Positions 1,812 to 9,611 are shown, counted from the stretch's first letter. The stretch is 33,608 bases of DNA from Bacteroidota bacterium (GCA_029851965.1 JARKUW010000119.1:1-33608), one strand, 5' to 3'. Numbers and translations: made by a program. The notes: generated from the letters alone by a model not told the origin.

Positions 1812-1985
1812 ATACTTAAATTTAAATAATAAGATGCTTTTAGTATTTAAATGTATAAATAATAAACAATTAATTAAGATTCTATGTTCGAAAAAAAGGC
1901 CTTTTGACAATATTACAAGCAGGCATTAGTTTATATCTAAAGCAAATGCCTATTTTTGACCAGTTATAAATATCTTTTGCGAAAC

Positions 1986-3458
1986 ATGCTTAAACAACAT
2001 TTACAACAGAAATTACTTCAAAAACTATCTCCTCAGCAAATTCAATTTATCAAATTGCTGCAGGTACCTACTGTTGCTTTAGATACGCGTATAAAAGAAG
2101 AACTGGAAGAAAATCCTGCCCTTGAAGATCCAAGCTTGATGGTTGCCGAAGAACCAAAAAGCGAGTATGATGACCTGAATGATACGATAGATGACTTTGA
2201 TGCCAGCATAAAAGAAGAAAACACAGATGAATTCAATGTTGACGACTATTTGCAGGACGACAATACAAATGATTACAGCACTTCATATAGTAACGGCGAT
2301 GACGATGAGGATAAAAAAGAAACGCCTATCGCAATAGAAAGTACTTTCTTTGAAAGTCTTCAAGAACAACTGGACCTCGTACCCCTTTCAAATACGGATT
2401 TTATTATTGGAAAACAGATCATAGGAAGCCTCGATGATGATGGCTATCTAAGAAGGCCAATTACGTCTATGATCGACGATCTTGCTTTTTCTCAAAATGT
2501 GATGGTTGAGGAAGAAGATGTTTTGGAGATGTTAAAAGTCATTCAAAGCTTTGATCCTCCAGGCATCGCAGCCCGGGATCTACAGGAGTGCCTGACACTA
2601 CAGTTGAGACGAAAAGATGCATCCAATCCAATCATTCAGAAAGCCATCATTATCGTCGAGAACTACCTGGACGAGTTCACCAGAAAGCACTACGATAAAC
2701 TGGAAAAATCACTAGGCCTCAACAGTGAAGACCTGAAAGAAATCATCAATGAAATTCTACGCCTGAATCCTAAGCCCGGTGACTCCAATCAGGTGACAAC
2801 CAAACAGCTGCAGGTTATACCAGATTTTCATGTCTCAAACAATGACGGCGTGCTGATTCTCACCTTAAATTCGAAGAATGCACCGGAACTACGGGTCAGC
2901 AGATCCTACATCGACATGTTCGATCATTACGATAAGTCCGCTCAAAAAGATAAAAAGCTTAAAGAAGCCGTTCAGTTCGTTAAACAGAAATTAGATTCCG
3001 CGAAGTGGTTTATTGATGCGATTAAGCAAAGACAACAGACTTTGTTGAAAACCATGAATGCGATCATGCAATACCAGTACGAATATCTGCTTACAGGTGA
3101 TGAACGCAAAATGCGCCCCATGATCCTAAAAGACATTGCGGATAAGATCGATATGGATATTTCTACCGTTTCAAGGGTCGCCAATTCTAAATATGTGCAG
3201 ACAGAATTTGGCACATTCTTGCTCAAATCGTTCTTCTCCGAAGCCATCCAAACAGAGAGCGGCGAAGAAGTATCAAACAAAGAGGTTAAAAAGATCCTCG
3301 AAGATTGTATCGGTAATGAGGACAAGCGCAAGCCGCTTGCAGATGAAAAGCTGACAGATATCCTTAAAGAAAGAGGTTACAATATTGCCAGAAGAACAGT
3401 GGCAAAATATAGAGAACAAATGAATATTCCAGTTGCAAGGTTGCGTAAAGAACTTTAG
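1986..3458 (+). CDS. rpoN: RNA polymerase sigma-54 factor RpoN
   Basis: MLKQHLQQKLLQKLSPQQIQFIKLLQVP N-terminal Q-rich activator-interacting region; C-terminal RpoN box RRTVAKYREQMNIPVARLRKEL. Start assigned at the internal Met (1986); the ORF opens at 1956. Confidence 0.96.
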   Translation: MLKQHLQQKLLQKLSPQQIQFIKLLQVPTVALDTRIKEELEENPALEDPSLMVAEEPKSEYDDLNDTIDDFDASIKEENTDEFNVDDYLQDDNTNDYSTSYSNGDDDEDKKETPIAIESTFFESLQEQLDLVPLSNTDFIIGKQIIGSLDDDGYLRRPITSMIDDLAFSQNVMVEEEDVLEMLKVIQSFDPPGIAARDLQECLTLQLRRKDASNPIIQKAIIIVENYLDEFTRKHYDKLEKSLGLNSEDLKEIINEILRLNPKPGDSNQVTTKQLQVIPDFHVSNNDGVLILTLNSKNAPELRVSRSYIDMFDHYDKSAQKDKKLKEAVQFVKQKLDSAKWFIDAIKQRQQTLLKTMNAIMQYQYEYLLTGDERKMRPMILKDIADKIDMDISTVSRVANSKYVQTEFGTFLLKSFFSEAIQTESGEEVSNKEVKKILEDCIGNEDKRKPLADEKLTDILKERGYNIARRTVAKYREQMNIPVARLRKEL

Positions 3459-3531: not shown

Positions 3532-3999
3532 TTAGGAAAGCAGGTTTTGACGGACTAAAAATTCCAACTGTTTATTGGCCACAAGTAGTGCTTCGGTTAA
3601 TTCTTTATTTTCCTTTCTAAGCGCATATATTTCGTAGGCCTTCTCAATATTGATCCGAAGATCTTCATCCATCCATGGCTTCTGAATGTATTTATACACC
3701 TGACCTTTATTGATTGCATCAATAACCGCATTGATGTCTGCATATCCGGTGAGCAGTATTCGGATCGGATCCGGAAACTCTGGAATGATAGACTCCAGGA
3801 ATTCAATCCCTGTCATGACCGGCATCCGCTGATCTGTTATGATCACATGGATAAGTTCGGTTTCCAATACCTTCCTTCCCTCAACGGCAGATTCTGCTGT
3901 GAATATGTTGAATTTCCTTCTAAAGCCGGCTTTAAAGGAGTTTAGATTATGAACTTCATCATCCACGTAAAGCACATTTATTGAGGTATCGGAATTCAT
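3532..3999 (-). CDS. Stand-alone response regulator (REC plus coiled-coil tail, no output domain)
   Basis: INVLYVDDEVHNL...VIITDQRMPVMTGIEFLE...DPIRILLTGYADINAVIDAINKGQVYKYIQKPW: conserved acidic pair, phospho-acceptor Asp, Thr and Lys; ends after a short coiled coil. Confidence 0.9.
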   Translation of the reverse strand: MNSDTSINVLYVDDEVHNLNSFKAGFRRKFNIFTAESAVEGRKVLETELIHVIITDQRMPVMTGIEFLESIIPEFPDPIRILLTGYADINAVIDAINKGQVYKYIQKPWMDEDLRINIEKAYEIYALRKENKELTEALLVANKQLEFLVRQNLLS

Positions 4000-4121
4000 C
4001 AGTATTGTTGTATTTTTTGTTAAATATATTGCTTTAATAAATTTTAAAAAACTAATTTCGGAAAATTATTTTAAAAGAATAATGGAGCAATTTTAAGCAA
4101 AAGCTTACAGAATATAGCAAA

Positions 4122-5288
4122 ATGGATAATATTAATTCTTTTATTAGCGCTACAGATCGTTCTGCAATTTACCGGCCAGTTTATTTTAGACCCTCGAACC
4201 CAGAAGATAATGCTTCATTAAACGCCTTATTAGAAGGCAATTCCGGCCTCGAAATCTATGATCAAATTTATAGCCAGCTTACGGAACTGATCAAACTAAA
4301 TAATCCTACAAGAAAGCTTACTGCTGAAGAATACACATCTTTGATTGCCCTTCATGTCAATGGAGAAATCAAAAATTACGGCGTATGGGTCTATTTCCCC
4401 TGGTCAAACAAGCTTGTACACATGCTGGATGAGCAGGAATTTGCGCAGGTGAGAACCAACCGGAACATCCACAAGATCACGCCCGCCCAGATTGAAACCC
4501 TAAAAACGAAAAAGATCGGTATCATCGGGCTTTCTGTTGGTCAGAGCGTCGCGTTGACCCTGGCAATGGAACGTACCTGCGGGGAACTCCGCCTCGCCGA
4601 CTTCGATGAGATCGAACTGAGCAACATGAACAGGATAAAGGTGACGGTCTACGACCTTGGTGTGAACAAGGCCATTGTTGCGGCCCGGCAGATCGCAGAG
4701 CTTGACCCCTTTATCAATGTGGTGTGCTATACGGAAGGCATCACAAATGAGAATATTGACGATTTCTTCACACTTGGTGGTAAACTGGATATTCTCGTAG
4801 AAGAATGCGACGGGATTGACATTAAAGTACTTAGCCGGATAAAAGCGAAATCCCTGGGCGTACCAGTGGTGATGGATACCAACGACAAAGGAATGCTGGA
4901 TGTAGAACGCTTTGATCTTGAACCGGAAAGACATATCTTCCATGGCAGCGTTAATGAGCTGGAAGAACTTAGTCCTGAAGAATTGAAATCAAAACTGAAT
5001 TCCCTGACAATTCCCGAGAAAGTAGGTTATCTTGCCCGCATCATCGGGTATGAAAATCTTTCGGAAGGAATGAAAATCTCCCTCGGAGAAATGAATAAAT
5101 CCATTGTCGGATGGCCGCAGCTTGCTTCTGCAGTGACCCTGGGTGGCGCAATGGTAACGGAGATCAGCAGAAAGATTTTGCTCGACCAATTCACGTCATC
5201 GGGAAGATTTTTCGTTGACTTCGATGAACTGTTTACAGAAGAATTCAATACAATCAGTTATATAGACGGAGACAATGATACACATTAG
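4122..5288 (+). CDS. E1-like/ThiF-family adenylyltransferase, Rv1355c-like
   Basis: KKIGIIGLSVGQSVALTLAMERTCGELRLADFDEIELSNMNRI is a ThiF/E1 Rossmann nucleotide-binding motif with the D...L.N.R signature; EECDGIDIKVLSRIKAKSLGVPVVMDTNDKGMLDVERFDLEPERHIFHG resembles the Rv1355c subfamily. About 130 aa N-terminal extension; no nitroreductase domain is encoded. Confidence 0.85.
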   Translation: MDNINSFISATDRSAIYRPVYFRPSNPEDNASLNALLEGNSGLEIYDQIYSQLTELIKLNNPTRKLTAEEYTSLIALHVNGEIKNYGVWVYFPWSNKLVHMLDEQEFAQVRTNRNIHKITPAQIETLKTKKIGIIGLSVGQSVALTLAMERTCGELRLADFDEIELSNMNRIKVTVYDLGVNKAIVAARQIAELDPFINVVCYTEGITNENIDDFFTLGGKLDILVEECDGIDIKVLSRIKAKSLGVPVVMDTNDKGMLDVERFDLEPERHIFHGSVNELEELSPEELKSKLNSLTIPEKVGYLARIIGYENLSEGMKISLGEMNKSIVGWPQLASAVTLGGAMVTEISRKILLDQFTSSGRFFVDFDELFTEEFNTISYIDGDNDTH

Positions 5289-5970
5289 AACATTTAGAGC
5301 TCCAGATGACCCTGAGGCTTGTGCAAAATTCATCACAGGTCATAAACGACTACTCGAAATCTACGGTATCTCTCAAATTACCTCCAACCGCCAGGACTGG
5401 GTCGATGATTACAACACCATCGTCATTCTTGTTGAAGACAAGGAAACTAAAATGGTATACGGTGGTGCACGGGTGCAAATGGTTTCCTCGCAATATCAAC
5501 TTCCAATTGAAACCGCTATTGGAAAATATGACCCCAAGATATTTGAAATGATTGAGGCAGACCAGGCCAGAGGTGGAACATGCGAAATCTGCGGATTGTG
5601 GAACTCCAGAGAGGTTGCTGGAATGGGCATCGGTAGCTACATTCTATCCAGGGTCGGCGTGGCAATATCTGCACAGCTCCCGGTAGCAAGCCTATTTGTA
5701 TTGTGCGCTCCTATTACCGTTAAAATGGGCATAAGGCTGGGATGCAGTGTCGAGACCACACTTGGTAATAACGGTTTATTCTATTACCCGAAAGAAGACC
5801 TCGTTGCAACGGTAATGCGTCTTAAGGACATCAACGACCTTAGCCTCGCCACCGAGACAGAACGGACAAAAATGCTCTCCCTTAGAGAAACGCCTCACCA
5901 GTTTAATGACGAAATCGGACCAAAAGGAACTTATAAGGTAGAATACAACATCAAAATTCCAAACTTGTAA
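5275..5970 (+). CDS. GNAT-fold N-acyltransferase, resembling AHL-synthase/N-acyl amino acid synthase-like enzymes
   Basis: 231 aa; GNAT motif-A-like REVAGMGIGSYILSRVGVAIS (acyl-CoA loop) preceded by CEICGLWNS, comparable in position to the 'E-x-S-R' beta strand of AHL-synthase-like acyltransferases. Overlaps the upstream ThiF gene by 14 nt. Confidence 0.7.
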   Translation: MIHIRTFRAPDDPEACAKFITGHKRLLEIYGISQITSNRQDWVDDYNTIVILVEDKETKMVYGGARVQMVSSQYQLPIETAIGKYDPKIFEMIEADQARGGTCEICGLWNSREVAGMGIGSYILSRVGVAISAQLPVASLFVLCAPITVKMGIRLGCSVETTLGNNGLFYYPKEDLVATVMRLKDINDLSLATETERTKMLSLRETPHQFNDEIGPKGTYKVEYNIKIPNL

Positions 5971-5977
5971 CGCCGAA

Positions 5978-8128
5978 ATGAAAATCAAAAAAGTATTCCT
6001 TTTACTTTTCTTATTGCTACATATTAGCGCTCTCACATTTGGATCCTCAACAGGCGACATCACATTCAGCGATGCTACAAAGCTCTCAAAACTTGAAAAA
6101 GGTGCCTCAATCTACATCGACCCTACCGGCAAAATGCCGTTTAAGCAGGTTCTTTCCCAGAAATTTACGGAAACCGACAGCAGCGTCCCCAATCTCGGCA
6201 TCACGTCAGCTACAATATGGGTGAAACTTGACATTCTGAACATGTCTGGTATTCAGGAACTCTTCCTGATGGTTCAGCAACCATCAATTGATCGCATAAG
6301 CCTCTTCGACCCCACCGATAACGGAACATGGACGGTTACAAACCTTGGTGAATATAAAAAGTACTCCAGCAGGATCATTGACAATCCAAATTTCATTTTC
6401 CCACTGAACATTAAGGTCGACTCGGTAAAGACCATTTACCTGCGCGTACAATCAAAAGACCAGATTCAGCTTCCCATTTTAATGGGTTCAGGGCCCTCCA
6501 TTCTGAACCAGAACCTGATTCAAAATCTTTTTTTCGGTATGTACATCGGTATCATCATCATTATGATGCTCTACAACTTGTTTGTCGCCTTTACCGTCCG
6601 GGATTCCAGTTACTACTACTACATTGTTTACATCTTGTTTGTAGGTCTGACACAATTTACCTTCCAGGGATTGTCTTACAAGTTCCTTTGGCCGGAAAGC
6701 CCCTGGATGGCAAACTACAGCTCTATACTGGTGCCCTTCTTCTCCGGATTATCTACCATAATCTTCCTGCAGAAGTTCCTGCAGACCAGAATTTACACGC
6801 CAAAACTTAATTACGGCATCCACGTGCTGTTCGTACTTTATTGCATTGCCTGTGTAGTCGGGATGCTCGGGTACTATGCGCCATCCATAGAATTGCTGCA
6901 GGTAACAGCACTATCAGGCTCATTGTACGTCCTGTATGTCGCCAATGTGATCCGGAGGAAAGGCTATCGCCCCGCGGTATTCTTCCTGATCGGATACTCC
7001 ATCTTTCTATCCTGCATCATCATTTTTGTCCTTCGGAATTTCAACATACTTCCGTTCAATAACTTCACCTCCTACATTCTTGAAATCGGCTCTGTACTGC
7101 AGATTACCTTGCTTTCCTTTGCACTGGCAGACAAGATAAACTTCTTCAGACTTGAAAATGAACAGAGTCAACGGCAGGCACTGGAGGTATCTAAAGAAAA
7201 TGAAAGACTCATTAAAGAGCAAAACATTGTCCTGGAAATTGAAGTCAACAAGCGGACTGAAGAACTCCAGAATTCAAACTTCACATTAAGTCATACATTA
7301 ACAGAACTGAAGGAGGCTCAATCTCAGTTGGTTGACGCAGAGAAGATGGCCGGACTCGGTCAGTTGACCGCCGGGATTGCCCATGAGATCAACAATCCAA
7401 TAAACTTTGTTACCTCAAACATCAAACCCCTGGAACTGGACATCAATGACCTCTATGATGTGATTCAAAAATATGAGGACCTGGATCCGGCCAAGGATAT
7501 CCAGCAGCAAATTGCGGAAGTCGAGAAATTCAAAAGACAGATCGATATTGATTTCATCAAAACAGAGATCAATTCTTTGCTTTCCGGAATTGGTGAGGGC
7601 GCCAAGCGGACTGCCGAGATCATCAGGAGCCTGAAGAACTTCAGCCGCCTTGATGAAAGTGATACTAAGCCGGTCGATTTAAATGAAGGGATCGAGTCTA
7701 CACTCGTGCTTCTTCGGAGCACGATCCCCGGCAACATGAAGGTCGTAAAAGACCTCAAAGAACTTCCGTTGGTGGAATGTTTACCAGGGAAGATCAATCA
7801 GGTGTTCATGAACCTCATAACCAATGCCATACAGGCAGTAAAGGTGAAGCAGCCACATCAACCAGAAGAGTTTCTCTACATTTCGACTTGGTCAGAAGAT
7901 GATCTGGTGAAAATCAGCATCAAAGATACAGGTCCTGGCATGACCGAGGAGATCAAACAGAAGATCTTTGAACCTTTCTTCACCACCAAGGAACCGGGAG
8001 AAGGTACAGGCCTCGGACTATCTATCGTGTTTACGATTGTTGAAAAACATAAAGGTAATATCGATATTGTCACAAAAGTAAACCACGGTACAGAATTTAT
8101 TATTACCTTGCCTGTAAAAAAGATCTAA
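5978..8128 (+). CDS. 7TMR-DISM-type membrane sensor histidine kinase
   Basis: Signal peptide MKIKKVFLLLFLLLHISALTFG; extracellular beta-rich domain (ATIWVKLDILN...ELFLMVQQPSIDRISLF, 7TMR-DISMED2-like); about 7 TM helices; coiled coil; H-box AGIAHEINNPINFV; HATPase motifs DTGPGM and GEGTGLGLSIV. Confidence 0.92.
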   Translation: MKIKKVFLLLFLLLHISALTFGSSTGDITFSDATKLSKLEKGASIYIDPTGKMPFKQVLSQKFTETDSSVPNLGITSATIWVKLDILNMSGIQELFLMVQQPSIDRISLFDPTDNGTWTVTNLGEYKKYSSRIIDNPNFIFPLNIKVDSVKTIYLRVQSKDQIQLPILMGSGPSILNQNLIQNLFFGMYIGIIIIMMLYNLFVAFTVRDSSYYYYIVYILFVGLTQFTFQGLSYKFLWPESPWMANYSSILVPFFSGLSTIIFLQKFLQTRIYTPKLNYGIHVLFVLYCIACVVGMLGYYAPSIELLQVTALSGSLYVLYVANVIRRKGYRPAVFFLIGYSIFLSCIIIFVLRNFNILPFNNFTSYILEIGSVLQITLLSFALADKINFFRLENEQSQRQALEVSKENERLIKEQNIVLEIEVNKRTEELQNSNFTLSHTLTELKEAQSQLVDAEKMAGLGQLTAGIAHEINNPINFVTSNIKPLELDINDLYDVIQKYEDLDPAKDIQQQIAEVEKFKRQIDIDFIKTEINSLLSGIGEGAKRTAEIIRSLKNFSRLDESDTKPVDLNEGIESTLVLLRSTIPGNMKVVKDLKELPLVECLPGKINQVFMNLITNAIQAVKVKQPHQPEEFLYISTWSEDDLVKISIKDTGPGMTEEIKQKIFEPFFTTKEPGEGTGLGLSIVFTIVEKHKGNIDIVTKVNHGTEFIITLPVKKI

Positions 8129-8131
8129 TAT

Positions 8132-9223
8132 ATGCCGCCGCTGCCTGTAAAAATACTATACATCGACGACGAAGAGAACAATCTCTTTGCTTTTAAAGCA
8201 ACTTTCCGGAGGCAGTATGAGATCTACACCGCAATTTCCGCGGCAGAAGGGATGAAAATTCTGGAAAATGTAGAAATGAATGTTGTCATTGCCGATCAGA
8301 AGATGCCCGGGATGACCGGTGTTCAATTCTTTAAGCACATCAAAGACAAATTCCCCGACCCCGTCCGCATTCTTTTAACCGGATATACCGATATCGAGGC
8401 ACTCGCTGATGCCATCAATCATGGAGATATCTACCGGTACATTACCAAACCATGGAGTGACCTGGAACTACACAACACCATAAAAAACGCTTACGATTCT
8501 TATAAGACCAAAATCGACCTTAGAAACAAGGTTGCCGAGCTGGAGAAAACCAATGATGAGCTGAATCGCTTTATTTACAGCATTTCTCATGAACTCAGGG
8601 CACCCCTGGTATCGGTCATCGGTATCGTAAATCTGGTTAAAATGGAGGAATTGTACGAGTCAAGCGGTGAGTACTGGAGCCTCATTGAAACCTGTTCCAA
8701 TAAACTCGACTACTATATCCAAAAAACGCTTCAATATTATAAGAACAACAAAACAGCCGCAGAAAACACGTCAGTCGACTTTTCTAAGTTGATTGCCGAA
8801 CTGATCAGCCTATATTCCTATACAGATAAGGAAACTAAATTTAATATCGATATCGATCAAAGCCAGGAATTTATTGGAGATGCCTTCCGTATAGAAGTTA
8901 TTTTAGGTAATCTGATCAACAACGCAATAAAATATCAAAAGGCCACAGAGGTAAACAAGAAAGTAAATATCGAGGTTAAGGTAAACCCAATGAACGCCGA
9001 AATCTCTATCAGTGACAATGGAATGGGGATCCTTAACGAACACCTGGAGAAGATCTTTACTCAATTTTTCAAGAGTAAGAATCACCACGGAAGTGGCCTT
9101 GGCTTGTTTATTGTAAAGGAAGCACTAAACAAAATCAACGGTAGAATATCTGTAAGTTCAGACCTTCATGTAGGTACAACTTTTAAAATCTCAATTCCGA
9201 ATGCTAGAGCACACTCCGAGTAA
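8132..9223 (+). CDS. Hybrid response regulator / histidine kinase (REC-HisKA-HATPase_c)
   Basis: N-terminal REC KILYIDDEENNL...VVIADQKMPGMTG...ILLTGYTD...ITKPW; H-box FIYSISHELRAPLVSVIG; ATPase motifs DNGMGI and HGSGLGLFIVKEA. Confidence 0.93.
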   Translation: MPPLPVKILYIDDEENNLFAFKATFRRQYEIYTAISAAEGMKILENVEMNVVIADQKMPGMTGVQFFKHIKDKFPDPVRILLTGYTDIEALADAINHGDIYRYITKPWSDLELHNTIKNAYDSYKTKIDLRNKVAELEKTNDELNRFIYSISHELRAPLVSVIGIVNLVKMEELYESSGEYWSLIETCSNKLDYYIQKTLQYYKNNKTAAENTSVDFSKLIAELISLYSYTDKETKFNIDIDQSQEFIGDAFRIEVILGNLINNAIKYQKATEVNKKVNIEVKVNPMNAEISISDNGMGILNEHLEKIFTQFFKSKNHHGSGLGLFIVKEALNKINGRISVSSDLHVGTTFKISIPNARAHSE

Positions 9224-9611
9224 CAATAAGGTAATGCTTATTGATGATAATGCGATTGATCTGAAAATCAATTCCAAGATCATTTCCATTACCGGTCATT
9301 TTGAACAGGTAATTACCTGTTTGTCTGCTGAGTCTGCCTTAGCACATCTGCACGGCTGTCTCGATGCATCATTTCCGTTCCCGGAACTCATTCTTCTCGA
9401 CATTCAAATGCCGGAAATGAGCGGCTTCGAATTTTTGGAACAGTACAAACGCTTCCCTGACATATATAAGTCACAATGTACAATAGCCATGTTGTCTTCA
9501 ACACTTGACTTTGGTGACATCAAACGTGCAGAGGCAAATGTATACGTAGCCAAGCTGTTGAAAAAACCCTTGAATCCAGCGGATCTACAAGCACTTATAG
9601 CGAAGCTGTAG
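9201..9611 (+). CDS. Single-domain response regulator (REC)
   Basis: VMLIDDNAIDLKINSKII...ELILLDIQMPEMSGFEFLEQY...LLKKPLNPADLQALI. Overlaps the upstream hybrid kinase by 23 nt; an in-frame ATG at 9234 is an alternative start. Confidence 0.9.
   Translation: MLEHTPSNNKVMLIDDNAIDLKINSKIISITGHFEQVITCLSAESALAHLHGCLDASFPFPELILLDIQMPEMSGFEFLEQYKRFPDIYKSQCTIAMLSSTLDFGDIKRAEANVYVAKLLKKPLNPADLQALIAKL

Follow-up and report, generated by a model that had tools for sequence, protein, structure and literature searches.

Small acyl signals are produced in bacteria by one-gene synthases, either of the LuxI type or CqsA, and CqsS is a linked kinase receptor with multiple transmembrane segments. To our knowledge, no acyl-type autoinducer synthase has been established in Bacteroidota. 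A different acyl chemistry is that of the oxazolone pathways TrzAS, TyzACB, and OxzAB (Mycobacterium tuberculosis, Rhodococcus, and Pseudoalteromonas rubra), in which the acyltransferase TrzA (Rv1356c) is paired with TrzS (Rv1355c), an enzyme that cyclizes N-acyl-tryptophan and then desaturates it (PMC12856293). The related enzymes TyzA, TyzB, and TyzC make tyrazolones (PMC10404671), and the pathway is biochemically proven for both TyzA/TyzB and TrzA/TrzS (PMC10404671; PMC12856293). The physiological role of acyl-oxazolones is regarded as a major unresolved question, signalling having only been suggested (PMC12856293). In Bacillus, the genes for ComQXPA quorum sensing are polymorphic across comQXP but conserved in the 3′ portion of comP, the variants being termed 'pherotypes' (PMC12935306). 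This article describes a cassette at positions 3532-9611 of a 33,608-nucleotide stretch of Bacteroidota DNA (GCA_029851965.1, JARKUW010000119.1:1-33608; the whole stretch is referred to as the window), in which genes for two putative oxazolone-type enzymes precede a 7TMR-DISM receptor kinase gene. Judged from its sequence and by analogy with the systems above, the cassette is probably a self-sensing, autoinducer-like synthase-receptor system of exchangeable specificity that would employ oxazolone-pathway chemistry.

A sequence-only reading of the window had proposed six open reading frames (ORFs), all of which were found exactly where it placed them and on the same strands. The close packing it described agrees with the coordinates (ThiF/GNAT overlap 14 nt, GNAT/kinase gap 7 nt, kinase/HyHK gap 3 nt, HyHK/REC2 overlap 23 nt), as does a divergent receiver gene across a short AT-rich spacer. 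The features are as follows.

3532-3999, minus strand: RR1, divergent receiver protein with phospho-acceptor D56 and a short C-terminal extension (Pfam Response_reg, 6.7e-17)
4000-4121, no strand: AT-rich divergent spacer of 122 bp, presumed promoter region (sequence read directly)
4122-5288, plus strand: stand-alone ThiF/E1-like cyclase (Rv1355c/TrzS family), lacking the flavin-oxidase (FDO) half (NF005901, Pfam PF00899, AlphaFold2 fold)
5275-5970, plus strand: predicted GNAT-fold N-acyl amino acid synthase/acyl-homoserine lactone (AHL) synthase-like acyltransferase (AlphaFold2 model, Foldseek)
5978-8128, plus strand: 7TMR-DISM sensor histidine kinase (Pfam 7TMR-DISMED2, 7TMR-DISM_7TM, HisKA/HATPase)
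8132-9223, plus strand: HyHK, REC-HisKA-HATPase kinase, H-box SISHELRAP from residue 150 (Pfam HATPase_c, Response_reg)
9201-9611, plus strand: REC2, single-domain receiver with phospho-acceptor D67 (Pfam Response_reg, 9.9e-12)

The sensor kinase has the DISMED2 and seven-transmembrane (7TM) domains of 7TMR-DISM receptors, the first extracellular at approximately residues 42-168 (7TMR-DISMED2, 7e-31) and the second at residues 183-386 (7TMR-DISM_7TM, 1.4e-50), followed by the H-box GIAHEINNP from residue 466. HyHK had been read as a hybrid kinase, and it does contain both kinase and receiver, but the receiver is N-terminal. In having a small acyl signal, which is a prediction here, and a linked multi-transmembrane kinase like CqsS, the cassette resembles CqsA/CqsS and LuxI-type systems; unlike these, it lacks a LuxR-type receptor and uses other synthase partner enzymes and another sensor family.

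Relationship to acyl-oxazolone enzymes

By its Rv1355c-family domain and conserved ATP-binding/adenylation residues, the window's ThiF protein is a TrzS/OxzB-type cyclase. It matches NCBIfam NF005901 ('Rv1355c family') at E=1e-136 over profile positions 5-341 of 722 only, its 457 bits falling short of the 476-bit cut-off because the FDO half is absent, and the ThiF domain is also recognized by Pfam PF00899 (E 1.6e-20). Residues G136, S138, G140, D160, D162, R171, K183, and D230 are common to this protein, the fused Bacteroidota proteins, and the actinobacterial Rv1355c proteins, and are invariant in 20 stand-alone ThiFs; a stand-alone Streptomyces ThiF likewise has conserved ATP-site residues. 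The AlphaFold2 model (predicted local distance difference test, pLDDT, 86.1) has AclA (9egb), PaaA, ThiF, and MccB as its top folds; no literature was found on AclA. Two other roles were rejected: that of an ordinary ThiF/MoeB/tRNA-TcdA enzyme, as those family models score far under NF005901, and that of an E1 activating a ubiquitin-like protein for conjugation or defence, as the best family is Rv1355c and the cassette has no ubiquitin-like or protease gene.

FDO, a nitroreductase-superfamily oxidase, is neither fused nor adjacent to the window's ThiF, and no homologue was found in any of the 12 near-complete stand-alone-type genomes searched, in which PF00881 matches are mostly ordinary nitroreductases of roughly 200-230 residues; provision of FDO in trans is therefore rejected for those 12 genomes. 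Owing to this absence, the window pair is not classed as a complete, desaturating oxazolone pathway, and its product is expected to be saturated. As cyclization by TrzS comes before desaturation, a cyclase makes chemical sense without FDO.

The GNAT assignment made in the sequence-only reading is sub-threshold in Pfam (Acetyltransf_1, E=0.25) but is backed by the AlphaFold2 model (mean pLDDT 86.9), for which Foldseek returned BjaI (5w8e, 4.4e-8) and FeeM (2g0b, 7e-8), then RpaI, TofI, and LasI. The nearest folds are thus those of an N-acyl amino acid synthase (FeeM) and of acyl-homoserine lactone synthases (BjaI, RpaI), and BjaI and FeeM are also the structures named for TyzA (PMC10404671). 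As modelled, the protein has the fold of an N-acyl amino acid or AHL synthase, and its predicted activity is acyl transfer to an amino acid. An alignment of 23 sequences contains 28 invariant columns; searches of the PDB and of plasmid collections with the GNAT sequence gave no match.

Because the ThiF is of the TrzS/OxzB type and the GNAT fold is that reported for TyzA, the chemistry of the pair is assigned to N-acyl-oxazolone biosynthesis, in which formation of an N-acyl amino acid would be followed by ATP-driven ring closure. The earlier statement that no named pathway has this combination does not hold for the two enzymes. The cassette resembles TrzAS, TyzACB, and OxzAB in its Rv1355c/TrzS-family ThiF with conserved catalytic residues, in the adjoining acyltransferase of FeeM/BjaI fold, and in the ThiF-FDO fusion carried by many of its Bacteroidota relatives. 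It differs in the missing FDO of the window type, in a GNAT for which comparison with the actinobacterial neighbour proteins tried (the true TrzA sequence not being among them) detected no sequence similarity, and in its link to a receptor kinase, which the examined actinobacterial loci lack.

Conservation and co-inheritance of synthase and receptor

A search for GNAT relatives was positive in 162 of 301 genomes from the order and in 13 of 398 genomes taken as a sample of the phylum. At least 525 relatives were found when the GTDB species set was scanned, the best 80 being nearly all from Bacteroidota. The cassette is kept across Bacteroidota of Sphingobacteriales, Chitinophagales, and Cytophagales type. 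The sequence-only reading had called for a search for conserved ThiF-GNAT-kinase synteny. An orthologous 7TMR-DISM kinase follows the GNAT on the same strand at 116 of 117 loci, an arrangement not due to chance; the remaining locus stops at a contig edge. Most of the homologous cassettes also have REC2 after HyHK. The GNAT has different partner enzymes in different cassettes: a stand-alone ThiF (S-type, as in Pedobacter cryoconitis), a ThiF-FDO fusion (F-type, as in P. metabolipauper), an S-adenosylmethionine (SAM) methyltransferase, an FAD_binding_4 oxidase, or none. Since loci were recruited through GNAT similarity, synthase-less receptors would be missed, save in 20 Pedobacter genomes that were checked; L093 and L128 were excluded, ORF calling having given no GNAT.

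In Pedobacter, the synthase and relay are inherited all-or-none: a HyHK orthologue is present in 19/20 synthase-positive versus 0/20 synthase-negative genomes, and RR1 in 10/10 cassette-positive versus 0/10 cassette-negative genomes. Synthase and receptor are thereby genetically linked and co-inherited, as in autoinducer-type systems. Kinase-free ThiF-GNAT pairs had been named as evidence that would count against a joint function, and this objection applies in part, outside Bacteroidota. Among the actinobacterial homologues, no histidine kinase adjoins ThiF in the flanking DNA retrieved (L159 being without annotation), and a Streptomyces plasmid pair also has none; linkage to a kinase is therefore characteristic of the Bacteroidota family. 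That plasmid pair (L156, 7992-9790) overlaps by 4 nt, lies by a MerR-type regulator, has a GNAT unrelated in sequence, and is an FDO-less oxazolone-like pair outside Bacteroidota.

An alternative is that the sensor recognizes the product in order to confer resistance or immunity, in the way that toxin producers protect themselves, rather than for population signalling. Receptor-product matching would then appear identical in sequence, and planctomycete N-acyl tyrosines have been reported to be antimicrobial (PMC12856293). Nevertheless, across the 117 loci the cassette has no recurrent gene dedicated to export or immunity, flanking genes being variable, and we consider this explanation improbable.

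The window is contig C169 of an assembly of 3.37 Mb in 294 contigs (78.6% complete, 4.2% contaminated), and its named neighbours place the source with Pedobacter. Directly upstream of the cassette is rpoN (sigma-54; window 1956-3458), a position it also has in the further Pedobacter loci with a stand-alone ThiF that were examined. Because several Pedobacter loci of both ThiF types are near rpoN, and the window's downstream OmpA/MBL genes are common to the F-type locus L059, the S- and F-type cassettes look like alternative forms at one locus. RR1 (3532-3999) also matches the HyHK receiver domain (window 8132-8510) at approximately 48-56% identity in other Pedobacter genomes, and so may be a duplicate that acts as a competing phosphate acceptor. 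Synthase-positive genomes listed have one GNAT each, except for the metagenome-assembled genome (MAG) of the window, which has two. A second cassette fragment, of ThiF-FDO type, is located on its contig C252 (L052, 1-4990); since its four proteins are 97-99.6% identical to those of another Pedobacter genome (L059), the fragment probably reflects mixed binning, the less likely option being two cassettes in one cell. Another cassette (L105) is on a contig labelled Azovibrio restrictus (a MAG, Pseudomonadota) but is close to Bacteroidota loci such as L106, and the contig is likely mis-binned. At L144, which begins at a contig edge, and L145, which does not, the GNAT has no neighbouring tailoring enzyme, which suggests a plain N-acyl product.

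Discordant histories of the two kinase halves

The tests included 93 of the loci above, each having a complete kinase and a distinct GNAT. Across 94 cassettes, the sensor kinase is divided: its N-terminal half (extracellular domain and 7TM) tracks the biosynthetic enzymes, whereas the C-terminal half tracks HyHK, the switch occurring at approximately residues 390-450. GNAT distances correlate with those of the sensor (rho 0.38) and 7TM (0.33), also when made partial on HyHK (0.36 and 0.31; 0/300 permutations), while the kinase half correlates with HyHK at rho 0.72-0.81 and weakly with GNAT (0.18). RR1 distances follow the kinase half and HyHK (rho 0.77-0.82) rather than GNAT (0.26); as RR1 lies beside ThiF on the other side and behaves like the kinase half, linkage alone is no full explanation.

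Between the two Pedobacter types, identity is 71-82% in the kinase half and relay versus 41% in GNAT, 39% in 7TM, and 23% in the extracellular domain. Between Pedobacter and Olivibacter the order is inverted, with GNAT at 77-80%, 7TM at 55-60%, the kinase half at 50-52%, and the HyHK domain at 32-34%. The sensor tree groups Pedobacter-S, Olivibacter-S, and Solitalea-S (support 99), and the kinase+HyHK tree groups all Pedobacter (support 100). In approximately unbiased (AU) tests, a single Pedobacter clade was rejected by sensor (p 2e-4) and GNAT data (p 4e-107), and a Pedobacter-S + Olivibacter-S clade by kinase-half (p 3e-3) and HyHK data (p 3e-4); the halves of the kinase thus share no common history. 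The type of tailoring enzyme requires 5 changes on the sensor tree, versus 8 on the GNAT, 9 on the kinase-half, and 12 on the HyHK tree. Mosaics also occur, L082 and L048/L120 having the GNAT from one group and the tailoring enzyme and sensor from another. In L082 (Parapedobacter indicus), a window-like GNAT (74%) is partnered by a methyltransferase, and the sensor falls with methyltransferase-type sensors (support 100) while the kinase stays with Parapedobacter.

Block exchange between conserved flanks could have moved neighbouring genes in the absence of any ligand-receptor matching, making the pattern a pure linkage artefact; the exchanged genes are contiguous, and the homologous flanks (RR1 and the kinase half) would favour such exchange. 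However, the block boundary coincides with the sensor/kinase junction within the kinase gene, and the sensor is the most divergent region. Moreover, in the stand-alone type, of order ThiF-GNAT-kinase, the distal ThiF predicts the sensor beyond GNAT (partial 0.34 for 7TM, 1/300; 0.39 for the extracellular domain, 0/300). A pure artefact accordingly seems to us no more credible than the immunity explanation. Somewhat less implausible, although still unlikely, is that the enzymes are the output of a kinase that senses an unrelated cue and induces the oxazolone or N-acyl amino acid as an antimicrobial, membrane, or stress lipid. Oxazolones are stress-inducible in some proteobacteria, with no known receptor (PMC12856293), and a divergent receiver gene by the synthase genes would fit regulated expression, but such a role fails to predict that the sensor half, and not the kinase half, follows enzyme type.

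A sensor that follows the enzymes and a kinase that follows the relay is the pattern predicted by a private synthase-receptor system, and, at the level of sequence, the ligand-binding part of the receptor co-diversifies with the synthase and the kinase part does not. As in ComQXPA, biosynthetic genes and the sensor part vary and the kinase part is conserved, with no homology implied; unlike ComQXPA, where ComX is a modified peptide, the cassette has a GNAT, a tailoring enzyme, and a 7TMR-DISM sensor.

A candidate self-sensing system and its implications

In the self-sensing system proposed here, the GNAT would N-acylate an amino acid from an acyl-CoA or acyl-acyl carrier protein (ACP) donor, and the ThiF would activate the carboxylate with ATP and close the ring to an oxazolone (azlactone), which would remain saturated as the FDO partner is absent. 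The hydrophobic product would exit the cell and be bound by the linked kinase through its extracellular domain, its 7TM bundle, or both; the kinase would then signal via HyHK and the receivers, the direction of phosphotransfer and the output being predicted likewise. Specificity would evolve as the sensor half is swapped in one block with the GNAT and its tailoring enzyme, each lineage keeping its own kinase half and relay. Three observations favour the suggestion in the sequence-only reading that an enzyme-made metabolite is sensed by the linked receptor, with product and ligand at the level of prediction: the synteny is conserved, synthase and relay occur together or not at all, and sensor and synthase have repeatedly been exchanged in one piece.

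Several points weigh against self-sensing. Saturated azlactones hydrolyse readily, so that the N-acyl amino acid or a different product may be the true signal, and the cassette has no output regulator, nor was an exporter identified. In cassettes of order GNAT-ThiF-kinase, the sensor follows the neighbouring ThiF but not the GNAT, which is then the distal gene. Since the tailoring enzyme, GNAT, and sensor half lie side by side, recombination of whole blocks between conserved flanks plays a part. The permutation Mantel tests do not preserve phylogeny, the trees are quick ones with support from the Shimodaira-Hasegawa-like approximate likelihood ratio test (SH-aLRT) only, and the AU-tested clades were picked after the identity table had been seen.

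No paper was found that ties 7TMR-DISM receptors to a co-encoded synthase or to acyl signals, or that concerns Pedobacter autoinducer synthases with kinases; the enzyme chemistry is already known, and its coupling to a cognate receptor is, as far as the literature search reached, new. We give about an even chance to the broader proposition of a Bacteroidota-wide family of cell-cell signalling systems with private dialects, in which a common acyltransferase is combined with swappable tailoring enzymes (cyclase, cyclase-oxidase, methyltransferase, or FAD oxidase) and the 7TMR-DISM ligand-binding half is swapped alongside. For the question of what acyl-oxazolones do, the cassette offers a dedicated candidate receptor beside the synthases. 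Together with the enzyme/receptor swaps found in nature among culturable members of Pedobacter, Olivibacter, Parapedobacter, and Chitinophaga, this makes the question directly testable. If the proposal is true, the acyl-oxazolone enzyme family would gain, in these ThiF members, its first function coupled to a receptor.

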